DNA of 64,000 bases from a virus: the IMG/VR virus record IMGVR_UViG_3300011115_000874, positions 1-64,000 of that record; one strand, 5' to 3'. Shown here piece by piece: positions 16,504 through 53,950 of this stretch. The position numbers and the translations under genes were made by a program. Positions within the stretch are counted from its first letter, which is position 1. Every line of letters starts with the position of its first letter. The notes beneath the pieces were generated by a model. That model was not told the origin of the DNA and made no database searches. It worked only from the letters and a program-made list of their open reading frames with translations.

Positions 16504-16929
16504 TTATTCTTCAGTTTTATCAACTAATGGACCTCCAACAACCCAAGCATCACAAGTTCGAGCAGCAGCACATTTAAATTTTAAAAATCTGCAATATCCT
16601 AATTTACCAGCATCAATTACATCAAATGGATCTTCTGATCCTCCATCGTTACCTATACCTTTAGCGATACAGTCTAGTGTTTTTGTTGTGATATCAAATG
16701 CAGCACAGTTACCACATAATGAAGTTTTAGCTTCTTCTATAGAATCAAGCTGCCACATATCTGCTTTAGCTTGCCAAAATTTTTCATTTGGTTCATTTGG
16801 ATTTAAAGGACCATATCCTTGATTTTTAATAGCTTTTTGTCTATTTTGAAGATTTAATTCTATGTTTTGTGTAGCAGCAGGACATTTATCTATATCTGCT
16901 TCATTTAAGATATCTACTAATTTTATCAT
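16504..16929 (-). CDS. Leader-tagged cysteine-rich protein
   Basis: This 141-aa protein starts at 16929, not at an in-frame ATG five codons upstream. The chosen ATG overlaps the TGA of the preceding gene (ATGA), and the product then begins with the tag M-I-K-L-V-D-I-L-N-E-A-D. The body has seven or more cysteines in C-G-N-C-A-A-F, L-G-Y-C-R-F and K-C-A-A-A-R-T-C-D-A-W. I recall this cysteine pattern from proteins of uncultured T4-like marine phages. It may bind metal. No function is known. Confidence 0.65.
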   Translation of the reverse strand: MIKLVDILNEADIDKCPAATQNIELNLQNRQKAIKNQGYGPLNPNEPNEKFWQAKADMWQLDSIEEAKTSLCGNCAAFDITTKTLDCIAKGIGNDGGSEDPFDVIDAGKLGYCRFLKFKCAAARTCDAWVVGGPLVDKTEE

Positions 16930-17636
16930 TTTGTTTTCCCCCATTTTTTACCTTTACCTTTAGTTTTACATTGAGATGGTGTAGGACGACATGATGGGTA
17001 TTTAGATCGTTTTTCACCTTCTTTACGCCCACAAGGTTTACATTTACCATTTCTACATGTATTGCAATCTACCCACCCACCTTCTTTACCTGGTGTGCCT
17101 TTACGTTTAAACCATTTATGCAATGATTCGTCTTCAGTTAAAATATCTTGAAATTCTTGAGGTAATTTTTTAATGTTTACTAATTTAGCAGGAATTGATT
17201 TTAATTCAGCATCTATAGCTTTATTAGCTCTATGATTACCATCTATAATATATTTATAATCTCTATTATCATCTACAATAATAATAATAGGATATTTAAA
17301 ATCAGCAGCACTTAACCTATCTGATTCTATACCACCACTGTCTTTTTTAATAACTATTTTTTTAATTTTTTCAATAGGGGCTTGAATAATAGGATAATCT
17401 TTTATAATATTCAAAAGTTGTGTTAATGTTATTTTTTGTCCATTTTTTCCTGTCCAAGATGTTTTTTGCCAATCTTCTTTTAAATCTTTCCAGATTTTAC
17501 CTTGACGACATCTAACAATAGCACCTGATTTGTAAGCAGATGGTTTATCGTATTTACGATCAGCAATACGTTTACAGCGATCTGCTTTTTTCTTTTTCTC
17601 CTCAAGGAGTTGTTTTAATATCTCTGTAAGTTTCAT
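16926..17636 (-). CDS. Leader-tagged ParB-like protein with DUF5872-like end
   Basis: This 236-aa protein begins M-K-L-T-E-I-L-K-Q-L-L-E-E, a variant of the shared leader. A basic Cys segment (A-D-R-C-K-R-I-A-D-R) follows. The middle has a ParB/sulfiredoxin-like core with Y-I-I-D-G-N-H-R-A-N-K-A near 129-140, the nucleotide-binding G-x-H-R motif. The C-terminus (H-K-W-F-K-R-K-G, G-G-W-V-D-C-N-T-C, R-K-Y-P-S-C-R-P-T type) matches what I know as DUF5872. ParB-fold proteins can be CTPases, kinases or nucleases. Which applies here is unknown. Confidence 0.72.
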   Translation of the reverse strand: MKLTEILKQLLEEKKKKADRCKRIADRKYDKPSAYKSGAIVRCRQGKIWKDLKEDWQKTSWTGKNGQKITLTQLLNIIKDYPIIQAPIEKIKKIVIKKDSGGIESDRLSAADFKYPIIIIVDDNRDYKYIIDGNHRANKAIDAELKSIPAKLVNIKKLPQEFQDILTEDESLHKWFKRKGTPGKEGGWVDCNTCRNGKCKPCGRKEGEKRSKYPSCRPTPSQCKTKGKGKKWGKTK

Positions 17637-17637
17637 A

Positions 17638-18282
17638 TCACCAGAATCCTGAAAATGTTGTTTTAAATCCTAATAACTTTGCATAACGAGGTAAACGACA
17701 TGACCAGTATGATGCCTTAGTACGATCTTTTTTATTAGCACAGTTATGTCTTTTGGCAAAGGCTTGACGCGCTTTAGGATTGTTAAGTTTAGCTCTTAGT
17801 CCACCACCTGCCATACCAAATGATACTTTTTTAATACGTTTAGTTTTAGGATCTTTAACATAAACATAGAATTTTTTAGAACCACCACGTTTTGGTTTAC
17901 CTAATGCGGGTTGTTTCTTTTCTTCTTCTAATTCGGCTTCTGTTAATATTTCAATTTCCATCATTGGTAAGTCTAAAGATACTATTTCACCTTCAAACAT
18001 CCCAAAACGACCTAAATCTGTATTTTCAAATAATTTTTTATCTTCAGCTAAAAGTTCAATAATACCTTGTTTCCATAGTATACGAGCTTCATGGATTAAT
18101 TCTATATGTGATTTAGAACCAGGACGGAATATATTCTCATGGATAGGTATTTTATTAGAAATATGATATCTCATTTCCTCAGATATAGGAGAATTATATT
18201 GTTTAGACTCATTTAATGTTGGGGCAACATTAGGTTGTTCTAGTAAAGCTGATTTTATTGCTTCTATTATTAGTTGCTTCAT
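17638..18282 (-). CDS. Leader-bearing basic virion protein
   Basis: This 214-aa protein begins M-K-Q-L-I-I-E-A-I-K-S-A-L-L-E-Q, an amphipathic leader ending L-L-E. The C-terminal half is very basic (G-K-P-K-R-G-G-S-K-K-F-Y-V-Y-V, then K-A-S-Y-W-S-C-R-L-P-R-Y-A-K-L-L-G), a pattern I recall from T4-like cyanophage proteins of unknown function. It overlaps its upstream gene by one base. DNA-binding head protein is a guess from charge. Confidence 0.6.
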   Translation of the reverse strand: MKQLIIEAIKSALLEQPNVAPTLNESKQYNSPISEEMRYHISNKIPIHENIFRPGSKSHIELIHEARILWKQGIIELLAEDKKLFENTDLGRFGMFEGEIVSLDLPMMEIEILTEAELEEEKKQPALGKPKRGGSKKFYVYVKDPKTKRIKKVSFGMAGGGLRAKLNNPKARQAFAKRHNCANKKDRTKASYWSCRLPRYAKLLGFKTTFSGFW

Positions 18283-19250
18283 TATTTAAACAATTGGTTA
18301 AAATTCATTGATATCTCAGAAGATTTAACTGTAATTCCATTATTTAATAAATTTTCATCTGGGATTTGAGATATTATATCACTAGTAATTTTTGTATAGT
18401 CTCCTTTTCCAACATAATTAACATTTAAAATATATCCTACTTCTTGATTCATGTTAGGTTTTTTAATTAATTTTGTCCATAAAAGTTTACGTAGTAAAGC
18501 TACAGTTGCTTGTTCTGGGGTTGGGTTAGAATCTAATCCTAATGCTTTATATAAAGTATCTATCTTACTAAAAAAAGGTTTAGTTATATCTAATTTTCTT
18601 AAATCATTATTAGAATAAATTTCAAATATAATTTTAAAACCACTTAATAAATCTTGAGGTTTAAAATTACCTGTGTTAGCTTGAATAGCTTCTTCATTAA
18701 ATAATGATAATGTACCAAATACTTTATTTAAAAGACTAATTGTTTCTTTATCAGTTCCAAATTTACCTAAAGTAATAGTTTTAGTATCATATGCTTTAAC
18801 TTCAACTCCAATCCCACTAATAATTAAATCTGGGTTTTCTCCTCCTCTACCATCTATAACATTTATTGATTTTATATTATGTTGATAAGCCCAATAAGTA
18901 GCTATCTCTCCATTTCCTGATCCTGCTGTAGGTGTACCATCTGATTTTAATGGTTTGATTGGGTATAAAGCAGCCCAAATTTTTTCATCGTCTCCTTTTA
19001 AATTAAAAGACTCACCTACAGATAGAGGAGTTTTACATTTTGGGATATCATTAGTTTTTAAAGCTGATTGTATTAGGGCATCATATGGACTATTACTTTC
19101 AGTTAAAATATTTGTTATATTCACATTTTCTCCTAATTTTTCATTTATTAGAGACTCAAGTAATGAAATATCAGTAGGGTTACTCATATCTGGGTAACCC
19201 TTAGGGAATTTGTAAGAAACACTGTGTAGAAATTTATCGAATATATTCAT
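18282..19250 (-). CDS. PD-(D/E)XK-like nuclease candidate
   Basis: This 322-aa protein shows a possible restriction-endonuclease-like core: G-N-G-E-I-A-T-Y-W near 112-120, then N-P-D-L-I-I-S-G-I-G-V-E-V-K at 139-152. That gives a glutamate, an aspartate and an E-x-K in the right order and spacing. The N-terminus carries a helix with N-I-L-T-E-S near 50, again an L-x-E site. If packaged like its neighbours, it could be an injected nuclease that attacks host or rival DNA. The nuclease call rests on this motif alone. Confidence 0.5.
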   Translation of the reverse strand: MNIFDKFLHSVSYKFPKGYPDMSNPTDISLLESLINEKLGENVNITNILTESNSPYDALIQSALKTNDIPKCKTPLSVGESFNLKGDDEKIWAALYPIKPLKSDGTPTAGSGNGEIATYWAYQHNIKSINVIDGRGGENPDLIISGIGVEVKAYDTKTITLGKFGTDKETISLLNKVFGTLSLFNEEAIQANTGNFKPQDLLSGFKIIFEIYSNNDLRKLDITKPFFSKIDTLYKALGLDSNPTPEQATVALLRKLLWTKLIKKPNMNQEVGYILNVNYVGKGDYTKITSDIISQIPDENLLNNGITVKSSEISMNFNQLFK

Positions 19251-19253
19251 ATT

Positions 19254-19262
19254 GATAAATAT
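19254..19262 (-). promoter_or_regulatory. Late-type AT motif (variant)
   Basis: Plus-strand GATAAATAT, one base from the common form, lies 3 bases before the nuclease-like gene. The position is closer than usual. Confidence 0.35.
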
Positions 19263-19715
19263 TTAATGAACTAATAAATAAACTAAAGGCGCTATAATTA
19301 TTACTGCTACTCCACCAGTTACAAATGTTGATGTGACCCATTTATTCTTTTTATCAGTCATATCATCCAATTTAATTTTTGTGTTTTCATGAGTAATATA
19401 CTCATCATTATACTTTTTTTGAAAATCTTTTGATACATCTAATAATTTGTCATATTCACCATTTAAGTGATCATATGCTGATCTTTCTCTTTCAATTTGT
19501 AAATCAGCATCCATCGCATATCTTTCCCATTTTGCTTTTTCAAGCTTACATCCTTCAAACTGTTTAAATTTTACTAATAATTCAATTTCTTGTTTATAAG
19601 TAAAAAATATACCAGTATCACCGCTAAAAACAATACGTTTAGGGGTTAAGTGTTGACCACATGCTATCGCGCTGGTCAAGAGTAAAATTATGGATATTAG
19701 AAATGTCTTTAGCAT
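19263..19715 (-). CDS. Spanin-like lipoprotein with C-terminal membrane segment
   Basis: I start this gene at 19715 (150 aa), where the product begins with a clean signal sequence M-L-K-T-F-L-I-S-I-I-L-L-L and a possible lipobox S-A-I-A-C (Cys19). A charged, probably coiled-coil body and a C-terminal hydrophobic segment (V-T-G-G-V-A-V-I-I-I-A-P-L-V-Y-L-L) follow. An outer-membrane lipid anchor plus an inner-membrane segment is the design of unimolecular spanins. The 5' end overlaps the 110-aa gene in another frame, as in Rz/Rz1 pairs. Confidence 0.55.
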   Translation of the reverse strand: MLKTFLISIILLLTSAIACGQHLTPKRIVFSGDTGIFFTYKQEIELLVKFKQFEGCKLEKAKWERYAMDADLQIERERSAYDHLNGEYDKLLDVSKDFQKKYNDEYITHENTKIKLDDMTDKKNKWVTSTFVTGGVAVIIIAPLVYLLVH

Positions 19716-19971
19716 TTTTGATTTGGATATATTGGATTTCTGTTTTAACATTTGTTTGAGCACTATCATAATCTCGTTTTAGTTTAGTATAAGATATATT
19801 TAATGAATCTACAATATGACTTAAACTATCAATACGATTGTCTATAGGAGGCACTATTGGTCTTATAGGTTTATTATATGTTATTATAATATGAACTAAA
19901 AATGCTATAGTAAAAAACCAAGGTAGCATTATATACCAATTCTTTTTTATAAATTTAATTGATGTGTTCAT
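19639..19971 (-). CDS. i-spanin (Rz)-like membrane protein
   Basis: This 110-aa protein has one N-terminal membrane anchor (Y-I-M-L-P-W-F-F-T-I-A-F-L-V-H-I-I-I, about 13-30). A helical, heptad-like periplasmic part runs through D-S-L-S-H-I-V-D-S-L-N to the end, with Y-I-Q-I-K-N-A-K-D. The topology matches inner-membrane spanins. It overlaps the downstream lipoprotein-like gene in a different frame by about 77 bases, a classic spanin arrangement. Sequence similarity to known Rz proteins was not tested. Confidence 0.55.
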   Translation of the reverse strand: MNTSIKFIKKNWYIMLPWFFTIAFLVHIIITYNKPIRPIVPPIDNRIDSLSHIVDSLNISYTKLKRDYDSAQTNVKTEIQYIQIKNAKDISNIHNFTLDQRDSMWSTLNP

Positions 19972-20528
19972 TATGCTGGTAGTGTTTCTTCAGGTGCTTC
20001 TTCTGTAGGTGGGGTTTCTTCTGTTGATGCTTCAGGTGTTGTTTCATCTGCTGGCATCTCTCCTCCCATTGGTACTTCTCCTACTGGTGCGTCTTTATCT
20101 GGTTCTGCTCCTCCACCATAACGTAATATACGAGCTATAGCTGCTGCAGCACGTTGTTCTTCATTTAAACTAGCTAAATAGAATTTTTTACCTTCAACTT
20201 GAGCAATCCAAGAACGTTCAGTGTATATCAAATAAAAATGTTGGTCATTAGCTAACATAATTTTAAATGTAGTAGGACGAGGAGCTACCCACCATATATC
20301 AGATATAAAATCTCCATATTGGTCTGTGAGTAAATCTATTATGACTTCTTTTAGTTTAGGAAATTTAGCTAATACAGGGAATAATTCCTCCTCAAAATTA
20401 ACATCATCTGGTGTTACACCGAATGTATCTTCTTGAGCTTCTTCTGAATTTTCTCCTGCTTTTCTAGCAGCATAGACACGTTTAGCTATAGCCTGTATTT
20501 TATCTACTAGTTCTTTTCTACTTGCCAT
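19971..20528 (-). CDS. Hypothetical virion-region protein, 185 aa
   Basis: The protein starts with a basic helix (R-K-E-L-V-D-K-I-Q-A-I-A-K-R-V-Y-A-A-R). A compact alpha/beta domain contains F-P-V-L-A-K-F-P-K-L-K-E-V and F-Y-L-I-Y-T-E-R-S-W-I-A-Q-V. It ends in a Pro/Glu/Thr-rich disordered tail of about 45 residues. No family is recognised. It shares one base with the spanin-like gene downstream. Confidence 0.55.
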   Translation of the reverse strand: MASRKELVDKIQAIAKRVYAARKAGENSEEAQEDTFGVTPDDVNFEEELFPVLAKFPKLKEVIIDLLTDQYGDFISDIWWVAPRPTTFKIMLANDQHFYLIYTERSWIAQVEGKKFYLASLNEEQRAAAAIARILRYGGGAEPDKDAPVGEVPMGGEMPADETTPEASTEETPPTEEAPEETLPA

Positions 20529-20529
20529 T

Positions 20530-21198
20530 TTATTTATCTAAAGTGTATTCAGTTTTTTCATCTATTCCTGGCTTATTAGCTGCTTGGAAACCTAAGTATT
20601 GACTAACTGACGCTATGTAGTCAGCGGCTTTAGTAATTTTACTTTGTACCCAAGCTTCTAATTGAGTATCATCATCTAGCATTTGCATTAACTCTTGAGA
20701 GTTTTTAACTAAACGATATAATTCAGACTTAGCCATTTCACCTTCATAGTCAACTTCTTCTTTAAGATCTACCCCACGTCCTTTTAATATATCCGCTTTA
20801 GTCACTTTACCATCACCTGTTAAATCAGGGAATTCTTTACTTTTTTTCTCACTTACAGGAGGTGTAGATAATTTTTTCTTAATTATATCTTTTAATTTAG
20901 TCTCACTCATAGTTTGTACTTGTTTTTTAGCTATATTAATTGCACGACCCCATAGTACATCTTCAGCGTTACTATTGTGGTTGGTAATAGCGTTTATTAT
21001 TGCTCCATCATCAGCTTTCATCGCTGAATATATGTCTTTTGCTCTGTCTTTAACAGCATCTGATAATCCTTCATTAATAGGTTCAGAAGCATATAATGCT
21101 TTCATATAAGCCTTAGCTTTTTTAACAGATGAAGAACATCCTTTCTTCTTACCTGTCTCTTTATTATAAACACATTTGCCTCTTAATTCGTATGGCAT
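20530..21198 (-). CDS. Virion-region protein with EF-hand-like loop
   Basis: This 222-aa protein opens M-P-Y-E-L-R-G-K-C-V-Y-N-K-E-T-G-K, continues with a helical region, and then has D-L-T-G-D-G-K-V-T-K-A-D-I-L near 125-138. That is a dockerin/EF-hand-like calcium loop. The last 70 residues (M-A-K-S-E-L-Y-R-L-V-K-N-S-Q-E-L, Q-S-K-I-T-K-A-A-D-Y-I) are a segment I know from T4-like environmental phages. Function unknown. No promoter is evident between it and the histone-like gene upstream, only a hairpin. Confidence 0.6.
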   Translation of the reverse strand: MPYELRGKCVYNKETGKKKGCSSSVKKAKAYMKALYASEPINEGLSDAVKDRAKDIYSAMKADDGAIINAITNHNSNAEDVLWGRAINIAKKQVQTMSETKLKDIIKKKLSTPPVSEKKSKEFPDLTGDGKVTKADILKGRGVDLKEEVDYEGEMAKSELYRLVKNSQELMQMLDDDTQLEAWVQSKITKAADYIASVSQYLGFQAANKPGIDEKTEYTLDK

Positions 21199-21219
21199 AT
21201 CTATTTATTTTAAAGTTAA

Positions 21220-21236
21220 GGGGAGCAATGCTCCCC
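21220..21236 (-). terminator. Hairpin terminator after histone-like gene
   Basis: A 7-bp perfect GC-rich stem (GGGGAGC / GCTCCCC, 3-base loop) follows the stop of the 57-aa gene. Only a weak T-rich tail comes after it. Confidence 0.65.
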
Positions 21237-21257
21237 TATAACTAAATTTTACAATTC

Positions 21258-21431
21258 TTATTTCGTTTTGTCTTCAGCAGTAGAAGCTTTACGGTATTCC
21301 GCAATTACCTTCTTAATCTCACCAGCTGTTTTGCGAGCACGTCCATGTGCTGCTTTGGCGGGTTTTGAGTGTTCTGCTACTAATAACTCGAATAACTCTT
21401 GCATTCTTTCTAATAACTCTTGACTGTTCAT
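21258..21431 (-). CDS. Histone H1-like (Hc1-type) small protein
   Basis: This 57-aa gene begins M-N-S-Q-E-L-L-E-R-M-Q-E-L-F-E-L-L and continues H-S-K-P-A-K-A-A-H-G-R-A-R-K-T-A-G-E-I-K. The closing segment is V-I-A-E-Y-R-K-A-S. This order matches short Hc1-type histone H1-like proteins common in Bacteroidota. Such proteins bind DNA through the lysine/alanine-rich helix. Here it may help compact phage DNA or act on the host nucleoid. The placement among virion genes favours a packaged DNA-binding role. A terminator follows. Confidence 0.78.
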   Translation of the reverse strand: MNSQELLERMQELFELLVAEHSKPAKAAHGRARKTAGEIKKVIAEYRKASTAEDKTK

Positions 21432-21454
21432 AGATTTTATTTGTTTGGTTTATA

Positions 21455-21808
21455 TTATGCTTGATCCTTGGTGATTTGTGTTTTCAAAAAGAATAAAGCG
21501 GTGTTTCCGATTTGGCGTACTAATTTATCTTTATTTTCTCCGTCTGGTAGTTGTTTAGCAGCGTCTAATGCTGTTTGTAAACCTTGACCAACTTGTTTTT
21601 CAACAGAATCACCACCCATATCTGCTCCCATATCAGCAGTAGGTTCAACATCTATATTATCTACAGGTGCTTCTTCAGCAGGTGCTTCTTCAGCATCCAC
21701 TTCAAGATCTAAATCTAAAGGAGGTAATTCGTCTTTTTTCTTTTTTTCAAATAAAGCAACTTCCTCTTTAATGATCTGTTGTATTAGTGATTTTAATTTA
21801 GTATTCAT
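21455..21808 (-). CDS. Leader-bearing acidic helical protein
   Basis: This 117-aa protein starts M-N-T-K-L-K-S-L-I-Q-Q-I-I-K-E-E, an amphipathic leader with an I-K-E site. A lysine patch, a very acidic D/E/A/P-rich linker with M-G-A-D-M-G-G-D, and a C-terminal helix follow. The composition resembles head core or scaffold proteins. A late-type motif lies upstream. Confidence 0.55.
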   Translation of the reverse strand: MNTKLKSLIQQIIKEEVALFEKKKKDELPPLDLDLEVDAEEAPAEEAPVDNIDVEPTADMGADMGGDSVEKQVGQGLQTALDAAKQLPDGENKDKLVRQIGNTALFFLKTQITKDQA

Positions 21809-23008: not shown

Positions 23009-23461
23009 TTATTTTGATGGAACCTTTTCTATATCACATTTTATTTTAGCACTATCTAAAATTACTTTTAAATCATTCTCCATTTGAACTAAAGTAAGTG
23101 TATTTTTAGATTGAGGAAATCTTAAAGAATTACCTTCAACTTCAAAGTTAAACTTATTAGGATTTTTAAGATCTTCTTTAAATTTATTTATTTCAGTAGA
23201 GGTTTTTATAGGGAATGCTTTTCCTCTTTCTTTTTCTAGTGCTTTTCGTTTTGCTGGGTTTTGAGGACCAAAGTATTTTTCTAGGTCTGATTTAGAAATT
23301 TTAGCAAATAATTTTTCGTAGTTTTTAGGATTTTTAATAGCCTTTTCTACATCTTCAACTGTTGCGTTAGTTGGAGTTAACAATAAATCATTTGTTTGTT
23401 TATTAATTGAAAATGTTGCTTCTTCTTCATTTTCCATTAGTCTTACTAAACTGTATTTCAT
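23009..23461 (-). CDS. Hypothetical protein, 150 aa
   Basis: The start M-K-Y-S-L-V-R-L-M-E-N-E-E-E is a looser version of the amphipathic leader with an L-x-E site. The body is alpha/beta with many Lys/Asn residues and no recognised motif. The start overlaps the stop of the HAD phosphatase gene upstream by 4 bases, indicating coupled translation. Confidence 0.5.
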   Translation of the reverse strand: MKYSLVRLMENEEEATFSINKQTNDLLLTPTNATVEDVEKAIKNPKNYEKLFAKISKSDLEKYFGPQNPAKRKALEKERGKAFPIKTSTEINKFKEDLKNPNKFNFEVEGNSLRFPQSKNTLTLVQMENDLKVILDSAKIKCDIEKVPSK

Positions 23462-23958
23462 AGTCCTAGTTCTTTTAATTGTTTAATTGTATCCGCAGCT
23501 GATGTATGTAGTATTCCTATTCCACCTTTGTCTCTCCATTGTTGAATATTTTTTTCCATATCATCAATAAGTATTTTATTCTCCCCAGCATATTTTTGTT
23601 TAAACTTAGCTGGTGTCAAAATCATTTTAGCATCAGGTAAGTTATTTTTCTTCCATACTCGTTTACCTATTCTAGATGACTCTTCTTGTGAGGGTGCTGA
23701 TAATAATGTTGGGTTAAATGGTTTAATATAATTCCATAATGTTTGTCCATCAGGTAACCATTTTAATTTAATCCAAAATGAAGCTCCCATTTTATGTATT
23801 GGTTCCCAAAATTCTGCTCCTTCACCTGCAGCAGACATTGGTTTGCCTGTTGCTTCTTCATAACCTTTTTCAAAATCAACTAACACACCATCTAAATCAC
23901 AATAGATAGTATACTTGTTGTTTTCAACTTCTTCTAATAACTCTTTTAATTTAATCAT
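23458..23958 (-). CDS. Leader-tagged HAD-family phosphatase
   Basis: This 166-aa protein begins with the tag M-I-K-L-K-E-L-L-E-E-V. HAD motif I is Y-C-D-L-D-G-V-L-V-D-F, with catalytic Asp21 and Asp23. A late motif I-L-I-D-D-M-E-K-N-I is compatible with motif IV. It resembles small 5'(3')-deoxyribonucleotidase-like phage HAD enzymes, which dephosphorylate nucleotides. Substrate is not established. The tag suggests packaging in the head. It overlaps both neighbours by a few bases. Confidence 0.82.
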   Translation of the reverse strand: MIKLKELLEEVENNKYTIYCDLDGVLVDFEKGYEEATGKPMSAAGEGAEFWEPIHKMGASFWIKLKWLPDGQTLWNYIKPFNPTLLSAPSQEESSRIGKRVWKKNNLPDAKMILTPAKFKQKYAGENKILIDDMEKNIQQWRDKGGIGILHTSAADTIKQLKELGL

Positions 23959-25240
23959 TTCCTTTTATTGAATTTTCCCAACCTCTAAATAATAAACCAT
24001 TACCATATTCATACGCTTCACGTTCTAATTCTTTTAAATAATCGTCTTCATTTATGTTATGTCCTTCTATATTTTGTAACTTTCCTTCAAGATTTTGTTT
24101 ATGATGTACCATTTCATGAGCAAAAGAGCGCAATATATCTTTAGGATGACGTTTTAGTGTGTATAACGTGATTGACTTGTCATTTGGGTTATAATACGCT
24201 GTTTTGCCGAAGAAATCATCAGCGTTCTTAGTATCATCATCAACAAAATTAACATCAGGTAATGGTTCAATATTAATATGACCAATCATATAGCTTGTTA
24301 ATGATACTAATTTTTCTATAAAATCAGTGTCATGTTCTAGACCTTTTTTACTAATGTTAGATATTACTATTTTATCTTTATCTTTATCAACTTTAAAACC
24401 TGATGGTGATAGATTTTTATAATAATTTTTATAATAATCTACTTTAGTAGGTTCTGATGATATGTTTATGTCTAACTGTTTATTTTGGAGTGGCTCAAAG
24501 AAATTATTTGTTTCTTTTTTAGGTGTATTATCATGTCCACATTTATGACACATAAATAAATCATTACCACCATCTTTTATTTTCCAAGTCCAACCACAAC
24601 CATCACAAACTATACTATCACCTTCTATAGATTCTTCAACCCAAGTTGTTATTTCTTCACTCTCAGACATTGGATTAAGTATATTAAATACTTCATCTTG
24701 TTCTTTAGGTTCTAATTCATCTGGTAGGTAATTAAATAATGATTCTTTATCTGTTAATACTTGTCTAGCTTTAGTACCACTAACATCATTAGCAGTAACA
24801 ATATTAATTGCTTCTAAATTATCACGAGTATCTGTTGCTTTAGAACGTTTTTCAAAATCTTCAAAATCTTGGTTGCTACCTTGTCTAGATCCTAAAAACC
24901 ATTTAATATCTTCAAATGGATGTTCTTTAGTGTATCTATAAATTGAAGATACAGGATTAGGTGATGCTTCAATTTTAACATTATCTGGTAAGTATTTTTT
25001 ATATATGTTCCAAATTGCTAATGATTGATCTTGAGTAATGTTTGATCTTCCACCTCCTGTTCCAACAAATATAATAAATTTGTTTGGATTATATTTTTCT
25101 ATAGCTTGTTTAACTACCTCAAAATGACCCTTAGTTGGTGGTTGAAACCCACCACCAAACAAACCTACAGTTTTTCCTTCACCTAAAGAATCAACCTCAG
25201 TTAAAAATGGTAATATAAGTGATTTAACTAATGAGTTCAT
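23951..25240 (-). CDS. Nucleotidyltransferase-zinc ribbon-metallopeptidase fusion
   Basis: This 429-aa protein has three parts. (1) A leader M-N-S-L-V-K-S-L-I-L-P-F-L-T-E and a cytidylyltransferase/NMNAT-like domain with G-G-G-F-Q-P-P-T-K-G-H (29-39) and V-S-G-T-K-A-R (153-159). (2) A zinc ribbon with C212, C215, C231 and C234. (3) A C-terminal domain with H-E-M-V-H (375-379) in F-A-H-E-M-V-H-H-K-Q and a downstream E-R-E-A-Y-E-Y, typical of zinc metallopeptidases. The combination is unusual. The targets are unknown. Confidence 0.8.
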   Translation of the reverse strand: MNSLVKSLILPFLTEVDSLGEGKTVGLFGGGFQPPTKGHFEVVKQAIEKYNPNKFIIFVGTGGGRSNITQDQSLAIWNIYKKYLPDNVKIEASPNPVSSIYRYTKEHPFEDIKWFLGSRQGSNQDFEDFEKRSKATDTRDNLEAINIVTANDVSGTKARQVLTDKESLFNYLPDELEPKEQDEVFNILNPMSESEEITTWVEESIEGDSIVCDGCGWTWKIKDGGNDLFMCHKCGHDNTPKKETNNFFEPLQNKQLDINISSEPTKVDYYKNYYKNLSPSGFKVDKDKDKIVISNISKKGLEHDTDFIEKLVSLTSYMIGHINIEPLPDVNFVDDDTKNADDFFGKTAYYNPNDKSITLYTLKRHPKDILRSFAHEMVHHKQNLEGKLQNIEGHNINEDDYLKELEREAYEYGNGLLFRGWENSIKGND

Positions 25241-26034
25241 TTAATAAAATTATTAACAATAGTAGGTAATTGCTTACTATCTATAGGATTTAATTTAGAT
25301 TGAATATCCCCGTAAGTATTAGCTATTTTATCGATATTTTGATAAAGTTGTTGTTTTGTTTTTTCTCTTGACTTTTCTCTCTTTTCTTTCTCTTCAGGTG
25401 ATAAATCTGTGTCATCTTTTCTGAATGAAGATGTGAATTGACCTGTAGATAATAAGTTGTCGAAATATTCTTTTAAAGTACCATCTTGATATGCTTTTTC
25501 GAAATTAGCAATTTCTGTTGCTTCTTCTGGTCCTGATGGTGTATTTACTAAAACAAAATTGTCTCCAAATATATTTTTGTATTCATCTAATAAGTTGTAA
25601 ACATTACCCCAAGTACCTAAAACACCGGCTGCTGGTACTTTACGTTCGCGCTTATAGTTTCTTAAGAATGATACTATAGGATGAGCATAAACCATTATCA
25701 TCATTACATCATATCCACCTTCATTTAACATATCTAATGTTGGTTGAAGGGTAGATAAATTAGAAGCAGTAGTATCGTAAATTAAATTACGTTTAGCTTC
25801 TATAGCGCTTGGTAAATCTCTTTTTCTTATTTGAGTTGATGCGGCTGATAAATTACCAAACATAGGTGAGTCTTTATCTTCTACATATTTGTCAGCATTT
25901 AGATTTTCAAATCCACTTAATTGTGACTCAATTGTTTTTAATATTGTTGATTTACCTACTGACGCTCCTCCAGCCATTATGATGGCTTTTGGTTTATTTT
26001 GTACTTCTTTTAATAGATCCGTTAGTTTTATCAT
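25237..26034 (-). CDS. Leader-tagged zeta-toxin-like kinase
   Basis: I start this gene at 26034 (265 aa), where the product begins M-I-K-L-T-D-L-L-K-E-V. An in-frame ATG at 26082 lies upstream of the early promoter and would add 16 unrelated residues. Walker A is A-G-G-A-S-V-G-K-S-T at about 20-29. The following N-L-N-A-D-K-Y and I-Y-D-T-T-A-S segments fit zeta-toxin/AAA_33 kinases. Zeta toxins phosphorylate UDP-GlcNAc, but phage members may act on other targets. It overlaps the nucleotidyltransferase gene by 4 bases. Confidence 0.75.
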   Translation of the reverse strand: MIKLTDLLKEVQNKPKAIIMAGGASVGKSTILKTIESQLSGFENLNADKYVEDKDSPMFGNLSAASTQIRKRDLPSAIEAKRNLIYDTTASNLSTLQPTLDMLNEGGYDVMMIMVYAHPIVSFLRNYKRERKVPAAGVLGTWGNVYNLLDEYKNIFGDNFVLVNTPSGPEEATEIANFEKAYQDGTLKEYFDNLLSTGQFTSSFRKDDTDLSPEEKEKREKSREKTKQQLYQNIDKIANTYGDIQSKLNPIDSKQLPTIVNNFIK

Positions 26035-40384: not shown

Positions 40385-40801
40385 TTATAAAGTTATATCT
40401 ATAGAATTTTTGTTACCAGCAAATGAATAATCAATAATAATATTAATTGAGTTAACATCATAATTTGGATTAATAATTACACTATTTGTAGTGATTTGTG
40501 GAAAATTTGCTTTTAATCCTTCTATAATTTGTAATTTAAGATTATTTAAATTTACTTCAGTTGTATTTTGAAATATAAATCTTCTTAAATCACTACCATA
40601 ATTTGGATTAAGAACACGTTCACCTTTATTAGTTAACATATAATTAATAACATCTGATCTTAATTGTTCTGTAGTAGTGTATGTTGAACTAAATACAGCA
40701 TCTGAACCACTAATTATTGAACCAACAAATGGTAGACTTACCCCAATAGCTAGTTGATAATCAAGATCTAATGGATTATTATTTTCTATTCTATATGCCA
40801 T
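40385..40801 (-). CDS. Baseplate wedge protein gp25-like
   Basis: This 138-aa protein has L-R-S-D-V-I-N-Y-M-L-T-N-K-G-E-R, then P-N-Y-G-S-D-L-R-R-F-I-F. These are signatures of the gp25/GPW family, which anchors the sheath to the wedge. The family glutamate/arginine region R-V-L-N-P-N-Y-G is intact. Its neighbours are gp6-like and a leader-bearing small protein. Confidence 0.9.
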   Translation of the reverse strand: MAYRIENNNPLDLDYQLAIGVSLPFVGSIISGSDAVFSSTYTTTEQLRSDVINYMLTNKGERVLNPNYGSDLRRFIFQNTTEVNLNNLKLQIIEGLKANFPQITTNSVIINPNYDVNSINIIIDYSFAGNKNSIDITL

Positions 40802-41148
40802 TATTTACTATTCATTAGTCCCATTATTTGATCTAAACCTACTTCACCGCCTGGGAGACTTGATCCTTCACCCATTGTGTTAATTGGTGGAGGTGTGTAA
40901 GCAGGTTGAGCATGAGATGAGTTTGCAGTAATTGTAGCATCAAATTCACCTCCAATCATACTTCGTAAATTACGTTTAAGATCATGATTTACAGGAGAAG
41001 ATTGTTGATAGGTAGGAACGGGAGTATAAGTTTCCTGTATTACTGTTTTAGGTGATTTAACTGCTTCAAGAAGGATATCTTTAATTTCCTCTTGAATTGC
41101 TTCACGTACTGCTTCTTTAATTAATTTTTTTAGTCCGTCGATTTTCAT
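40801..41148 (-). CDS. Leader-bearing small protein next to gp25
   Basis: This 115-aa protein starts with a long amphipathic helix M-K-I-D-G-L-K-K-L-I-K-E-A-V-R-E and reaches I-L-L-E-A near residue 29. The rest is Pro/Gly/Ser-rich with S-M-I-G-G-E-F-D near 70. Similar openings are common in T4-like environmental phages near gp25. Despite its position in the tail block, its leader has L-x-E sites like the head cargo candidates. Confidence 0.55.
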   Translation of the reverse strand: MKIDGLKKLIKEAVREAIQEEIKDILLEAVKSPKTVIQETYTPVPTYQQSSPVNHDLKRNLRSMIGGEFDATITANSSHAQPAYTPPPINTMGEGSSLPGGEVGLDQIMGLMNSK

Positions 41149-48686: not shown

Positions 48687-48695
48687 TATAAATAT
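48687..48695 (-). promoter_or_regulatory. Late-type AT motif
   Basis: Plus-strand TATAAATAT lies 3 bases before the 137-aa gene. Confidence 0.4.
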
Positions 48696-48711
48696 ATGTT
48701 AAACAGGAGAA

Positions 48712-48730
48712 TAGCGGCTTTAGGCCGCTA
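48712..48730 (-). terminator. Hairpin terminator
   Basis: TAGCGGC/GCCGCTA (7 bp, 5-base loop) lies downstream of the 114-aa membrane gene. The minus strand has a run of Ts before it and T-rich sequence after, so it may work in both directions. Confidence 0.65.
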
Positions 48731-48769
48731 TAATAAAAAAATTGTGGATGTGTTATTGACGGTTTAAAT

Positions 48770-49114
48770 TTATCCTTTAATTAATTGTTTTTGCTCTTTT
48801 AATGTAGCAGACATTTTATCAATTCTTGAGTCTACATAAGACACAGTGTTATTAAATTTAATATCTAATTCACGCTGTAACTCAGTGACATGATGATCGG
48901 AATGGCGTCCTATTTCATCTAATCTACGATCCAAATCTTGACGTAGATGATTTAAATTTTCCCATCCATCACGTTCAATATTCTTACTTTGTTGTTCTTG
49001 TTCTTTAATTGCTTTTAACAATTTAGTAATCTTAACTACACCCCAAACGATTGCAGCTACAAATGCAGCTCCAACAATCGAGAGCATACCTAAAACGAAA
49101 TATATTGTTTCCAT
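48770..49114 (-). CDS. Membrane-anchored coiled-coil protein
   Basis: This 114-aa protein has an N-terminal membrane segment (F-V-L-G-M-L-S-I-V-G-A-A-F-V-A-A-I-V-W) and a long helix with L-N-H-L-R-Q-D-L-D-R-R-L-D-E. It has a strong Shine-Dalgarno-like AAGGAG 9 bases upstream, rare in this window. It may be a lysis-related or membrane-associated protein. Confidence 0.6.
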   Translation of the reverse strand: METIYFVLGMLSIVGAAFVAAIVWGVVKITKLLKAIKEQEQQSKNIERDGWENLNHLRQDLDRRLDEIGRHSDHHVTELQRELDIKFNNTVSYVDSRIDKMSATLKEQKQLIKG

Positions 49115-49161
49115 ATTTATTTTCTCCTTATTATTATGTCAAAGAACACATCCACAATTGT

Positions 49162-49234
49162 GCGCCCTCCTGGGATCGAACCAGGTACCTACTGATTATG
49201 AGTCAGTTGCTCTAACCTAATGAGCTAAGGGCGC
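49162..49234 (-). tRNA. tRNA-Met (CAT)
   Basis: A regular cloverleaf: acceptor GCGCCCT/AGGGCGC, anticodon loop CTCATAA (CAT) in a 5-bp stem A-C-T-G-A/T-C-A-G-T, and T arm C-C-T-G-G/C-C-A-G-G. An Ile(CAT) identity after lysidine modification cannot be excluded from sequence. Confidence 0.85.
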
Positions 49235-49240
49235 TATTTG

Positions 49241-49312
49241 AGGTCCTGAACGGAATCGAACCGCTGTATAAGCTTTTGCAGAGCTCCACCTAACCACTCG
49301 GCTACAGGACCT
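49241..49312 (-). tRNA. tRNA-Cys (GCA)
   Basis: A regular cloverleaf with acceptor AGGTCCT/AGGACCT, anticodon stem GAGCT/AGCTT and loop CTGCAAA, which gives GCA. The T arm carries GGTTCGATTCC. It lies 6 bases from the tRNA-Met gene. Confidence 0.85.
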
Positions 49313-49317
49313 TTTTG

Positions 49318-49458
49318 TACTCAAGGCAGGAGTTGAACCTGCACGGGCTGCCATTATAATGACCACATCTTGTTCAGATGATTTTTTACCCACGTTGTTA
49401 TAACCATACGTTGCGTCTACCGTCGAACAGGGCCTCCTGATCCTTTCGCCACTTGAGT
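49318..49458 (-). tRNA. Oversized tRNA-like gene (141 nt)
   Basis: Perfect 7-bp acceptor (ACTCAAG/CTTGAGT) and intact T arm (GCAGG-TTCAACT-CCTGC) frame a 5' part resembling a leucine-type D arm (TGGCGAAA...TAGACGC). About 22 extra bases sit in the D loop and a long stretch of about 50 bases lies between the presumed anticodon and T arms. No unambiguous anticodon can be read. It may be a split, intron-bearing or decayed tRNA. Confidence 0.5.
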
Positions 49459-49465
49459 ATATGAT

Positions 49466-49497
49466 GAATATAATATCTATATATTATAAAGCCAAAC
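49466..49497 (-). promoter_or_regulatory. Early-type promoter of the tRNA cluster
   Basis: Minus-strand GTTTGGC and TATTATATTC at standard spacing. The predicted start lies a few bases before the oversized tRNA-like gene. Confidence 0.7.
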
Positions 49498-49511
49498 TCT
49501 TCTTGATAAAA

Positions 49512-49534
49512 AAAGCCGGGCTTAACCCGGCTTT
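49512..49534 (-). terminator. Strong intrinsic terminator after holin gene
   Basis: AAAGCCGGG/CCCGGCTTT (9 bp, 5-base loop) is followed on the minus strand by TTTTTTTA. It ends the 95-aa gene's transcript just before the tRNA promoter. Confidence 0.85.
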
Positions 49535-49557
49535 AAACGACTACTTATATTTTAGCG

Positions 49558-49845
49558 TTATAGTTGTTCGTCTGTATTAGTAGGTGGGGTATTGCCGTTA
49601 TTTGGCGTGTTATTCTTGGCTTGTTGTTTCATCTTAACAACGTTTTCTATAACAGTTAAACCTAAACCACCACCAGCAATTAACGCGATTGAATCGAACA
49701 TGAATTCGGGTGTGATGTGTTCTTCGTTCTTATAGGTAGCTATGTACGCTAGAGATATAACTACAGCTAATGCTAATAACGATGCGAAACGCTTACTTGA
49801 AGTATCTGAAGTGCCTGATAATAGGTCTTTAAGGAATTTTTTCAT
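49558..49845 (-). CDS. Putative holin with two membrane segments
   Basis: This 95-aa protein has two hydrophobic segments (F-A-S-L-L-A-L-A-V-V-I-S-L-A-Y at about 20-36 and S-I-A-L-I-A-G-G-G-L-G-L-T-V at about 52-65) and a polar Asn/Pro/Thr-rich tail. Size and topology fit phage holins. No endolysin is recognisable nearby. A variant of the late AT motif (GATAAATAT) precedes it. Confidence 0.55.
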   Translation of the reverse strand: MKKFLKDLLSGTSDTSSKRFASLLALAVVISLAYIATYKNEEHITPEFMFDSIALIAGGGLGLTVIENVVKMKQQAKNNTPNNGNTPPTNTDEQL

Positions 49846-49876
49846 AGTGTGTGTTTTATGATAAATATATAGTGAT

Positions 49877-50404
49877 TTACACTAGTAATGATTTTAACTT
49901 TATAGCTAGATCAGGTAGTTTTTTAATAGATAATATCTCTGACCAAGCATTAGGGATATAACTTTTTATAACGGTTACAACCTCAGGTATTTTAGACATA
50001 TCTAAACTATATAAAATTCCAGCTATTATTAATACTGTAGCTTTTAAAATATTAGCTAATTTATTTCTTTGACCATCATCTTTCACAAATGGTTTTAACA
50101 TTAACCTAATTGGAGAGTCTAATTTAGAATCTAATTTACTTGATAAATTAATTATCCAATCTACTTTTTGTCTCATTGGATCTCCACCTTTTTTAAGACT
50201 AATTCTAGACATTAAGGCTTTTACAACTCTAGCTAAGTTATTAACAATCCCTGGTATGGCTGGTGCTATCAAAGCTATATCTCCAATTGTAACTTCATTT
50301 TGAGGTACCTGTTTAATAGCATTTAATATAGCGTCATCTACACCTGATAAATCAATATCTTCTTGTGAGTCTAGTTCTTTTAATAAATCAACTAATTTAA
50401 TCAT
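49877..50404 (-). CDS. Leader-tagged protein of unknown fold
   Basis: This 175-aa protein begins with the tag M-I-K-L-V-D-L-L-K-E-L-D and continues with helices. A moderately hydrophobic segment (A-T-V-L-I-I-A-G-I-L-Y-S-L) lies near 125-138. I see no enzyme motif. Its tag and lone transcription fit a head-packaged effector. That is inference from the leader alone. Confidence 0.58.
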   Translation of the reverse strand: MIKLVDLLKELDSQEDIDLSGVDDAILNAIKQVPQNEVTIGDIALIAPAIPGIVNNLARVVKALMSRISLKKGGDPMRQKVDWIINLSSKLDSKLDSPIRLMLKPFVKDDGQRNKLANILKATVLIIAGILYSLDMSKIPEVVTVIKSYIPNAWSEILSIKKLPDLAIKLKSLLV

Positions 50405-50423
50405 AATAATAAATACAACAGAG

Positions 50424-50443
50424 AAAGGAGCTTTCGCTCCCTT
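50424..50443 (-). terminator. Hairpin terminator after DUF932 gene
   Basis: A stem of AAGGGAGC with GCTCCTTT (minus strand, one G-T pair) closed by a stable GAAA tetraloop is followed by TTTCTC. It separates the DUF932 gene from the tagged gene downstream. Confidence 0.75.
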
Positions 50444-50465
50444 CCCCTAATCAACCTTTAACTAA

Positions 50466-51269
50466 TTAGGCAGCAAACTCAGCTGCTAACTCATATAACT
50501 TAGCATTCAAATCTAAATCTTGTTTGAAGTTCTTAATCTTACGAGCCTTTCTAACCTTAGCTCCTGATTGGTATTCAAACATTCCTTGAGTAATTTTTTC
50601 TTGAATCACATTAAACACACTCCACAAATCAGTACCACGGTCTTCAGGTCTAGTAGCTGTAGTTAAGGCGTTATAATCAATTGCAATGTTTTGCGCTTGT
50701 TCTTCACCAAAACGTATTTGAACTGCTTTACGAGCAAACTCTAAAATTTGTTCTTGGGCCAGTTGCGTTTGTTTGAATTGATTCATTGACTCAACTGCTA
50801 ACGGTAACGCTTCTACCATTGTATTAATAACAGTTTGTAACTCTGTAAAATCATATCCGTAGTGACGAATCTTCATATTCTCAAACTCTTGAGTTGAAAT
50901 TACTAAACCATTCTCACAAATCATTCGAAACAAACCAGCAGTGAATGTAAACGCATTTTTACCATCATGACTATTAGTTAATAGAATTTGTGGAAAAACA
51001 TTATCACCATCTGCACCCTCAATGAACAAATCATTGTTACGAAACACTACTAAGTGTTTTTGAAATCCTTCACCTTTACGGGCGCGTACTTGTTTAACGT
51101 CTACTACACCCCATCCTAACTCTTCCATATCATCAATGATCTGTTTAGTTGAGATATGTGAATACTTCTGACTAGTACCTGGAGCACTTGTAGTTGTGAA
51201 AATTGAACTTGCTTTCTCTTTAATTTCAGAAGCAGTTAAAAACGTGTTGTTGTTTAAATCTAGTGGCAT
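50466..51269 (-). CDS. DUF932 family protein
   Basis: This 267-aa protein has Y-S-H-I-S-T-K-Q-I-I-D-D-M-E-E-L-G-W, then F-T-F-T-A-G-L-F-R-M-I-C-E-N-G-L-V, which fit phage DUF932 (ArdC-like) proteins. The biochemical role is unknown. It uses the AAATAAATAAAGGTTATG-type leader but no close TTTGGC promoter, so it may be read from the gene upstream. Confidence 0.8.
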   Translation of the reverse strand: MPLDLNNNTFLTASEIKEKASSIFTTTSAPGTSQKYSHISTKQIIDDMEELGWGVVDVKQVRARKGEGFQKHLVVFRNNDLFIEGADGDNVFPQILLTNSHDGKNAFTFTAGLFRMICENGLVISTQEFENMKIRHYGYDFTELQTVINTMVEALPLAVESMNQFKQTQLAQEQILEFARKAVQIRFGEEQAQNIAIDYNALTTATRPEDRGTDLWSVFNVIQEKITQGMFEYQSGAKVRKARKIKNFKQDLDLNAKLYELAAEFAA

Positions 51270-51291
51270 AACCTTTATTTATTTATTTTAT

Positions 51292-51588
51292 TTATAATTC
51301 GTTAATTAATGAACACATACGACTAATTGTGTTTCTGTATTTTTCTCTATAATCCATTCTCCATGGATCCCTATCTATATCCTGAGCTAAAAGAACTGCC
51401 TGGTCTGCATATATCTTTAACTTCTCAGATGTAGTGCCTTCAAATTCACCTTCTAAGGCGTCAATTGTAGGTACAATAAATATCTTTTGAACTGCCTTAC
51501 GGCCTCTTTTTTTAGGTTCAGCTGTGCTTACTTCTAATTTAACTTCTTGTTTTTTTGTCCCTGGTGGACGACCTCTTCTTTTTTCCAT
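51292..51588 (-). CDS. AT-hook protein, 98 aa
   Basis: The N-terminus M-E-K-R-R-G-R-P-P-G-T-K-K is a clear AT-hook, and K-K-R-G-R-K-A near 28 is a second. The rest is helical. It probably binds AT-rich DNA in the minor groove. Two other products in this window have the same type of motif. It has its own early promoter and shared leader. Confidence 0.72.
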   Translation of the reverse strand: MEKRRGRPPGTKKQEVKLEVSTAEPKKRGRKAVQKIFIVPTIDALEGEFEGTTSEKLKIYADQAVLLAQDIDRDPWRMDYREKYRNTISRMCSLINEL

Positions 51589-51615
51589 AACCTTTATTTG
51601 TGTTTTTAATTATAC

Positions 51616-51649
51616 CTAAATATAACATCCTTATCCTGGTGAGCCAAAC
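51616..51649 (-). promoter_or_regulatory. Early promoter of the AT-hook gene
   Basis: Minus-strand GTTTGGC and GTTATATTTAG at standard spacing. The -33 box sits just downstream of the stop of the upstream 57-aa gene. Confidence 0.75.
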
Positions 51650-51651
51650 TT

Positions 51652-51825
51652 TTAGTTGAATAGGCTAAGAATAGTAATAATGATAAAAAATATTGTAAAA
51701 TTAAAAACAAGACTACGTGAAACATTAATTACTTCTTCTTTAAATGTAGGCTTTACTTCAGCTTGTTGAGTGAGAATCATACGTGTAATCACTACTCCTA
51801 AAATCAAAATCATAATTGCGTTCAT
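51652..51825 (-). CDS. Small two-membrane-segment protein, 57 aa
   Basis: It reads M-N-A-I-M-I-L-I-L-G-V-V-I-T-R-M, a short polar middle, and S-L-V-F-N-F-T-I-F-F-I-I-I-T-I-L-S-L-F-N. Own promoter and stop codon are intact. Small membrane proteins are common in this early region. Function unknown. Confidence 0.65.
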   Translation of the reverse strand: MNAIMILILGVVITRMILTQQAEVKPTFKEEVINVSRSLVFNFTIFFIIITILSLFN

Positions 51826-51853
51826 AGTCGTTGTTATTAATTATTATTATGAA

Positions 51854-51887
51854 CTAAATATAACATCAACTCACCAGGAAGCCAAAC
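51854..51887 (-). promoter_or_regulatory. Early promoter
   Basis: Minus-strand GTTTGGC and GTTATATTTAG drive the 57-aa membrane-protein gene. Confidence 0.75.
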
Positions 51888-51938
51888 ACTCAACCGGAAA
51901 GGTCACAAGAAAATACTAGAACGTTGAAAATTAATGGA

Positions 51939-52898
51939 TTAGACGATTTCTAGGATAACATCGTCACCTACCTCACGAATCACTGCCAAAGCATCCTGAG
52001 TCGCTACTACTATAACTGGGTAGTTATCATCATCATTCAACCCAACCATTTGCATTAAATCAGCTCCTTCAATTACTTCCTCAATTGAACCAGCTTGATC
52101 TACAACTGCGTCTAACTCAGTTACTTTAATTTTTGTAGTTGATTCATAAATACCATAATCACCTTTAGATAATGATAACCCAGATAAAGCTTGTTTAATA
52201 TCAAGTAACACTTGAGGTGGATCAGTAGATAGTATTAAGTGGTCTACCCCTATACCTTCCATCAAACTAGAATTACTTATATCCTCAGGGGTGAATGGAA
52301 CAATAATTCCTCCTACTTCACCTCCAATAAAATTACCTTGTTTTAAACCTATAGGAGCTAACTTACTAATCCATAAACTCCAACTACCTGGGTATAAGAT
52401 GTTATCTGAGAAAATTGTTTTATATGCTTCTAATAACATAGTATACATCTTAATACCCAATCCTTTACCGCGGTACTTCGGGCTAACGTACGTTAAATGT
52501 ATCTCTGCACCAGGTAGGCGATATGGTTTAGTACGCCCAGAATTCGCATTGATGTATATTTTCTCCACCTCTACTTGTCCTATAACATAATCATCTAAAG
52601 TAGTGCCTTTAGTATTTACTAAATATAAAGTACCACGGTAAGTTGAAGGTACTATAAACTCAAAGTCACCATCAGCTGTGATAACACTTTTTTTAATCAT
52701 ACGAGGATTAAATGTAGCATCAGGCTTTAGATTAAAGTCCTCAGAGTTAAACTTACCTCTACTAACAGTAAAGAACTCATCTTCAGGTATTTGAAAGTCT
52801 TCTAAGAATGCAATCAATACTTGTTCTAAAGTAATGTTATCATCTAGATCGCCACCACGTAGGTCTAATTCTTTAAGTAAGTCGGTTAATTTAATCAT
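51939..52898 (-). CDS. Leader-tagged GNAT acetyltransferase
   Basis: This 319-aa protein begins M-I-K-L-T-D-L-L-K-E-L-D. Near 134-158 it has I-H-L-T-Y-V-S-P-K-Y-R-G-K-G-L-G-I-K-M-Y, the GNAT acetyl-CoA loop (R/Q-x-x-G-x-G/A) and helix. The C-terminal 130 residues form another domain with no clear identity. If packaged and injected, it could acetylate a host protein early in infection, as some phage-delivered enzymes do. The target is unknown. Confidence 0.75.
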   Translation of the reverse strand: MIKLTDLLKELDLRGGDLDDNITLEQVLIAFLEDFQIPEDEFFTVSRGKFNSEDFNLKPDATFNPRMIKKSVITADGDFEFIVPSTYRGTLYLVNTKGTTLDDYVIGQVEVEKIYINANSGRTKPYRLPGAEIHLTYVSPKYRGKGLGIKMYTMLLEAYKTIFSDNILYPGSWSLWISKLAPIGLKQGNFIGGEVGGIIVPFTPEDISNSSLMEGIGVDHLILSTDPPQVLLDIKQALSGLSLSKGDYGIYESTTKIKVTELDAVVDQAGSIEEVIEGADLMQMVGLNDDDNYPVIVVATQDALAVIREVGDDVILEIV

Positions 52899-52900
52899 AA

Positions 52901-53950
52901 TTAAAAATTCTTGCTGATTTCATCAGCTAATTGAGGTGATTTAGGAATAGTACTATGTAATGCATCAATTGGTATTACTTTTGATGACGCGTTTGTAGTT
53001 GCTTTTTTAGCGTTTTCTTCTTCTGTTTTAATTTCTTCAGGTGTTTTAGCACCTTCTTTTTTCTTAGAAGCAATTAATGATATTACTTCAACACCATTTA
53101 AGGGTCCTAATTTTTTACCTCCTGGTAATTCTCGTCCTAACCCTGCTTTCTTTTTAGTATCGTTAGTAGCGAACCATTTATAATCTATTGGATCTCCTTC
53201 TTTAAAAGTTTTACCTTTCACAGTGGGTGCTTTATTACTATATCGTTTTTCAAAATTTGTAGTATCAAATTTATCTTCTATTATCCAAGGATCTGATTGT
53301 TTAATATTAGATGCTTGTTTCTTGATTCCACTATCAGATGGAGGGAAATTACTACCAACGTATTCTATATATTTTCCTTCATTACTCTTTTTAAAACCAT
53401 CTAACTCATCATCAGTATAAAAAGTTTTAATCTTTTGTTCCTCAGTTGGTGAAAGATCACCTCCAACTCTATTCTTTACAAATACACTTAATGGTTGAGC
53501 AATTGCTACTCTAGGTTTATTACCTGCTACCATGTTATCAATAAAACTATCTGTACTATCAGCTATACCACTATCTATAAAGAATAATTTGTTATTAAAT
53601 TTCTTAGAGTCTAATGCTTTTAACTCTTTAGCTAAATGCCAAGCCATAGCACCTCCAATAGAAAAACCACCTACTCCAAATTTACTTATGTTAGGATTAC
53701 TTTCAATCTCATTAGCAATGTCTTTAGCATATTTTCTTACATCTAATTCATTAGCAAAATCAGCAGTATAAACAGAAAAATTTTTACCTAAATTATTTGC
53801 TAATGTAGTAAAATCACTTCCACCTTGACCTCCTCCAGCTCCAGAACCAGGTAAGAGTATGAGTGTGTTAGCTCCACCTTTAGATAAAGCGTAGAGTTTA
53901 GGTTTGTTTTCCTCTATTACTTCTTTTAATAAGTGGGTTAGTTTTATCAT
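52901..53950 (-). CDS. Leader-tagged alpha/beta hydrolase
   Basis: This 349-aa protein begins M-I-K-L-T-H-L-L-K-E-V. The alpha/beta core has an oxyanion segment L-I-L-L-P-G-S-G-A-G-G and the nucleophile elbow G-G-F-S-I-G-G near 94-100 (Ser97). F-F-I-D-S-G-I-A-D near 123-131 is compatible with the acid. The C-terminal 70 residues are Lys/Thr/Ala-rich and probably disordered. Esterase or lipase activity is likely. Target unknown. A late-type motif precedes it. Confidence 0.78.
   Translation of the reverse strand: MIKLTHLLKEVIEENKPKLYALSKGGANTLILLPGSGAGGGQGGSDFTTLANNLGKNFSVYTADFANELDVRKYAKDIANEIESNPNISKFGVGGFSIGGAMAWHLAKELKALDSKKFNNKLFFIDSGIADSTDSFIDNMVAGNKPRVAIAQPLSVFVKNRVGGDLSPTEEQKIKTFYTDDELDGFKKSNEGKYIEYVGSNFPPSDSGIKKQASNIKQSDPWIIEDKFDTTNFEKRYSNKAPTVKGKTFKEGDPIDYKWFATNDTKKKAGLGRELPGGKKLGPLNGVEVISLIASKKKEGAKTPEEIKTEEENAKKATTNASSKVIPIDALHSTIPKSPQLADEISKNF

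Follow-up and report, generated by a model that had tools for sequence, protein, structure and literature searches.

Tag-A proteins in the window

The first 64,000 bases of the 160,798-base viral record IMGVR_UViG_3300011115_000874, hereafter the window, encode several proteins that begin with nearly the same ten residues. This shared N-terminus, M-I-K-L-x-x-[LI]-L-x-E (tag A), occurs at exactly six starts in the window, all of them ATG and on the minus strand (16929, 23958, 26034, 50404, 52898 and 53950), which are the six products that a first-pass annotation of the sequence had singled out. That annotation had also called for a search of the full genome, and this yielded a seventh tag-A start at 104173 (gene 103667-104173 of the record). 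The protein starting at 17636, described there as a close variant, does carry a variant leader; this leader is looser, however, and stands between tag A and a second tag, B (see later in the text). The genes are as follows.

16504..16929, minus strand: cysteine-rich protein (CGNC...GYC...FKC...RTC) of 141 residues; tag at 16900-16929, MIKLVDILNE
16926..17636, minus strand: DUF5872/ParB-like protein; leader MKLTEILKQLLEE of a looser kind, intermediate between tags A and B
23458..23958, minus strand: HAD phosphatase, 5'-3' deoxyribonucleotidase-like (phrog_2643, E 5e-26); tag at 23929-23958, MIKLKELLEE
25237..26034, minus strand: zeta-toxin-like P-loop kinase (PF06414, E 3e-13); tag at 26005-26034, MIKLTDLLKE
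49877..50404, minus strand: protein of no assigned function, with a tagged homolog in G021 (48071); tag at 50375-50404, MIKLVDLLKE
51939..52898, minus strand: GNAT acetyltransferase-like protein; tag at 52869-52898, MIKLTDLLKE
52901..53950, minus strand: alpha/beta-hydrolase-like protein; tag at 53921-53950, MIKLTHLLKE

The seven bodies behind tag A comprise a HAD deoxyribonucleotidase, a zeta-like P-loop kinase, a GNAT protein, an alpha/beta hydrolase, the cysteine-rich protein and two proteins of no assigned function. They have no significant mutual similarity after residue 12 (best E 0.14), which agrees with the view of the first-pass annotation that the domains are unrelated and led us to reject common ancestry of the whole proteins. 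A relaxed form of the motif matches the proteome (∼51,000 residues) nine times, and seven of these matches are at a protein start (binomial P ∼4e-14, even when each Met among the first 35 residues of each open reading frame (ORF) is taken for a start). A comparison made without reference to the tag gave 30 similar N-terminal pairs against a single internal pair in this virus, whereas N-terminal and internal pairs were alike in number in T4, HTVC008M and RM378. The codons of tag A vary synonymously and the DNA upstream of the tagged genes is unrelated. Thus, tag A is conserved as protein and not as a DNA repeat. Its DNA pattern is present in relatives and absent from T4, HTVC008M, VH7D, P-SSM4 and LR756508; the reversed pattern was never found in the DNA pattern searches.

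Homologs of the cysteine-rich protein occur in at least 599 IMG/VR stretches. Its predicted structure was poor (predicted local distance difference test, pLDDT, 42) and the model was not used. In another phage group (L490-L505), other sequence precedes this family and the junctions read x-A-E or x-V-E (GVAEA, SIVED), an arrangement that looks as if a polyprotein were cut by a prohead protease. For the kinase, the model places the tag as a low-confidence helix (residues 1-10, pLDDT 52) before the folded domain (next blocks, 85-92). For the alpha/beta hydrolase, no match came from the collection of annotated phages and none by sequence from the PDB; the sole homolog found (50-52% identity) retains the tag MIKLLDILKE.

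Conservation of tag A and the T4 capsid-targeting sequence

Among 45 distinct kinase homologs in IMG/VR, the leader is constrained at position 4 (Leu in 37), position 7 (Leu or Ile in 43), position 8 (Leu or Ile in 44) and position 10 (Glu in 40), whereas positions 5, 6 and 9 are variable; Glu10 is invariant across an alignment of 16 sequences. The cysteine-rich family has the same pattern. In the capsid-targeting sequence (CTS) of T4 IPIII, mutagenesis assigned residues 4 and 7 to targeting and residues 8 and 10 to processing (PMC9026906). The constraint on tag A, deduced from conservation and not from mutation, falls on the same four positions. Moreover, T4 IPII and IPIII start with MKTYQEFIAE, so that their L/I-x-E site ends at residue 10 as it does in tag A, in line with the first-pass annotation, which had placed the L-x-E end of the tag at the T4 position. 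The layouts are alike; T4, however, lacks the DNA pattern of strict tag A, and the peptides are too short to prove homology. The start of T4 gp22, MLKEQLIAEA, is a CTS-like candidate.

Several tag-A proteins of relatives carry further motifs. Behind the tag, L425 2301-2969 and L152 10276-10923 (Mel-JY01) have WYHGST or VWHLTT and look like ADP-ribosyltransferases by eye only; these candidates (L425 2301 and Mel-JY01 60276) had no match in Pfam or PHROGs, and L425 2301 had none in the PDB. T4 Alt is an ADP-ribosyltransferase. L096 2447-2959 (G011) and L009 3366-3803 (immuto) have a Gly-rich loop resembling that of protein kinases, and for the former a kinase family of PHROGs was recovered (E 9e-5).

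Three further tags and their exchange on homologous bodies

The first-pass annotation had proposed one shared tag. Tag A is real, but it is one of several interchangeable tags: a de novo comparison of N-termini recovered tags B (MKKSELKxxIKEE), C (N/QFxRMQKLAGLITE, also FxRMQKLAG[LI]ITE) and, in relatives, D (MxNFDLKKYLVENKxT), which had been missed. Over all loci examined, 152 proteins carry tag A (40 unrelated bodies), 101 carry tag C (57 bodies), 44 carry tag B (28) and 14 carry tag D (14). Copies of tag C are N-terminal in 80 of 87 cases and C-terminal in three. At least 118 IMG/VR stretches contain its DNA pattern, compared with two stretches in 257 gigabases of cellular genomes. These two are contigs L277 (CANGUP010000043.1), from a metagenome-assembled genome of Flavobacteriaceae, and L278; L277 may be a phage contig. 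The following proteins of the window have leaders of type B or C.

2203..2718, minus strand: B-type leader MKSSELKKYIEENIFEILDE; adjoins the large terminase gene (TerL)
9992..12790, minus strand: 932-residue protein; tag-C-like N-terminus MNKEFLRMQQLAGV
12817..13332, minus strand: 171-residue protein; B-like N-terminus and C-terminal tag C (ETFLKMQKLAGVITEAQYNEKKINL)
21455..21808, minus strand: B-like leader MNTKLKSLIQQIIKEE
40801..41148, minus strand: small protein beside baseplate genes; B-like leader MKIDGLKKLIKEAVREA, which may be generic

A 1035-residue protein at 13369-16476 has a C-terminal part (IRAIKGVRNF) homologous to stand-alone B-tagged proteins of relatives.

Homologous bodies were found behind different tags in four combinations. 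The cysteine-rich protein of the window (16504, tag A) corresponds to a D-tagged homolog in another phage (G004 144111; 46% identity over 119 residues, E 2e-29). Tag A is replaced by B between G005 43031 and G004 143411 (49% over 102 residues), tag C by D between G005 30187 and immuto 1803 (57% over 68 residues), and tag C by B between L215 2366 and L416 16730 in G019 (55% over 84 residues). Such exchange is expected of functionally equivalent tags and is hard to explain otherwise.

The head module and the scaffold tail

The first-pass annotation had also proposed a search for a gp21-like protease and held that a genome without any prohead protease would speak against packaging of the tagged proteins. 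The record does encode such an enzyme (PF03420/Peptidase_S77, E 6.9e-30, above the cut-off), and the objection therefore does not apply. The relevant genes are listed below.

607..2178, minus strand: large terminase TerL, which marks a T4-type packaging module (identified by sequence; homolog annotated in phage immuto)
Record 152639-154312: gp23-type major capsid protein (MCP), 54% identical to immuto gp23
Record 154344-155405: gp22 scaffold, identified from its position and conserved ends
Record 155607-156449: tag-C protein, between the protease and gp22 genes
Record 156453-157061: gp21-type prohead protease

A prohead protease is thus present, and it lies inside a predicted T4-type head cluster with gp22 and a gp23-type MCP. 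By MCP identity, this virus comes closest, among annotated phages, to the Flavobacterium phages immuto (54%), Microcystis phage Mel-JY01 (47%) and Rhodothermus phage RM378 (35%). Twelve of 16 additional records tested also have the protease; all four large relatives selected by MCP belong to these twelve, and tag and protease co-occur among relatives.

Tag C gives the strongest clue to the mechanism. The C-terminus of gp22 reads FxRMQKLAGI(K), or differs little from it, in almost all relatives, and identical residues build tag C. On cargo N-termini, ITE directly follows this scaffold-tail motif. In gp22 itself, an [ILV]-x-E site lies 8-11 residues upstream of the tail motif in 65 of 66 distinct tails, 54 of them at one fixed distance, compared with 42% of windows of equal size from the rest of gp22; as the sequences are related, this enrichment is stated without a P value. 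Judged from these sequences, tag C reproduces the gp22 scaffold's C-terminal tail and joins an L/I-x-E site to it.

Proposed mechanism and alternative explanations

These data point with good confidence to a modular capsid-targeting system that would work like the T4 CTS, partly through scaffold mimicry. Short terminal peptides would recruit unrelated proteins into the prohead core, and we consider targeting to the prohead the most secure part of this proposal and very probable. Tagged proteins would dock on the core or the shell, probably at sites that the gp22 scaffold itself uses; tag A would act like the 10-residue T4 CTS, with tags B and D as alternative leaders. Upon prohead completion, the gp21-type protease would become active and cut scaffold, MCP and cargo on the C-terminal side of [LIV]-x-E. 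Cleavage of the tags by this enzyme is likely, if somewhat less so than targeting. Tags and scaffold fragments would then exit, and the freed cargo would remain in the head with the DNA. It would probably be delivered along with the DNA, so that the next host would receive a kit of proteins; injection into the host seems reasonably likely, and less so than cleavage. In its widest form, to which we incline only slightly, the proposal is that a T4-type lineage possesses a 'zip-code' system in which several interchangeable peptides would load dozens of unrelated, fast-changing effector enzymes into the head for the next host; one or more of these peptides would be the C-terminal docking tail of the scaffold, copied and fitted with a protease site.

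Several observations weigh against this proposal. The similarity between tag A and the gp22 N-terminus, NRDLLKEAIADAK, is only moderate and ranks 18 of 202 in this virus, 2-8 in six relatives and 13-75 in three; on these ranks, the view that tag A is nothing more than the start of gp22 is only suggestive. As a motif, L/I-x-E is weak and turns up often in Glu-rich proteins, as its frequency within gp22 illustrates. Tag B has the look of an ordinary amphipathic leader, and the start of TerL is similar to it. Some cargo homologs lack a tag, e.g. the HAD proteins of G004 and HTVC008M. Finally, a protease was not detected on the tag-A contigs G017 and G022, which may be fragments.

Among other explanations, the least improbable, although still unlikely, is that the tagged proteins are structural or size-determining parts of the core that are lost or degraded before DNA packaging, without any injection. 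T4 gp22, gp67 and gp68 are core proteins that are cut to fragments (PMC9026906), and several of the proteins with tags B, C or D are small, acidic and core-like in look. Many tag-A bodies, however, are enzyme-like domains that a core function does not need, and the T4 internal proteins and Alt, whose layout is the same, stay in the head and are then ejected into the host (PMC9026906). We give somewhat less credit still to the idea that the tags are docking peptides for an intracellular complex, in replication or takeover, whose members act in the producing cell. Several cargoes are indeed metabolic or regulatory enzymes (the HAD deoxyribonucleotidase, the kinase, the GNAT protein), but this would account neither for the match of tag C to the scaffold tail followed by a site of the prohead-protease type, nor for a tag-C gene within the head cluster or the agreement of conserved positions with the T4 CTS.

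A general export or membrane-association helix is very improbable: in the model tag A forms a short amphipathic helix, but its sequence shows no hydrophobic core or signal-peptidase site, its Glu10 is near-invariant, and the bodies exchange tag A with B, C and D, one of which is a scaffold tail. An artefact at the level of DNA or translation, such as a repeated ribosome-binding or promoter element, does have a counterpart in this virus, since another shared N-terminus, MLYSGIIKN..., resembles a repeated upstream element. For the tags, it was rejected on their synonymous codons and the C-terminal copies of tag C, and the unrelated upstream DNA and the residues fixed at 4, 7, 8 and 10 across families leave it barely any credit.

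Relation to known systems

N-terminal propeptides that target proteins to the head are known from T4, from P1 and from phiKZ and SPN3US. The arrangement is comparable with that of T4 IPI-III and Alt, in which a 10-residue N-terminal propeptide ending in L/I-x-E, with key positions 4, 7, 8 and 10, precedes unrelated bodies and is served by a gp21-family protease. The present system differs from that of T4 in the sequence of its tag, in having three or more additional types of tag (one copied from the scaffold tail), in its many more cargoes and in its C-terminal tags; packaging is here deduced from sequence. In phage P1, an N-terminal signal of DarB also directs the protein to the head and suffices to send a reporter there; it is 30 residues long, however, and P1 has no identified separate scaffold and no reported family of interchangeable tags (PMC9024508). 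The ejection proteins of phiKZ and SPN3US are head proteins with N-terminal propeptides that are cut after a short x-x-E motif (PMC5694885, PMC10052503), but these are mostly long (111-254 residues), with an A-x-E site and an unconfirmed gp22 counterpart. The literature searched, outside which most subscription journals lie, contained no description of the present tags.

If the proposal is correct, a motif of 10-15 residues would predict from sequence alone which proteins such phages carry into the cell, and many 'hypothetical proteins' would become candidate injected effectors. It also offers a clue to docking on the prohead, in which cargo would imitate the scaffold ends. Targeting signals of T4 and P1 have already been used for loading foreign proteins into heads, and natural swappable tags for both N- and C-termini would widen this toolbox. 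Flavobacterium phage immuto (host Flavobacterium sp. LMO8) is a culturable relative; its protein 24569 begins with MIKLIDLLTE, and cut sites are predicted for its tagged proteins 103366, 111675, 1803 and 103806.

Other features of the record

Small ORFs at 56442-61502 of the window (starts 56723, 59611, 61208 and others) share the leader MLYSGIIKN or MLYLxIIKKYKHM. This leader looks like an AT-rich upstream element present in several copies, and translation probably begins at a later Met. At 107628-112666 of the record, genes resembling those of 7-deazaguanine synthesis were recognized by eye (FolE, QueE, QueD, QueC, DpdA-like), as annotated in immuto, and DNA modification is possible. The 9-mer ATATTTATA lies 12-32 bases before many starts, and 34 genes have it within 45 bases upstream. 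It precedes structural genes and the operon heads of tagged genes, e.g. 16476, 53950, sheath 140109, tube 138349 and tape measure protein 136699, and is likely a promoter element.
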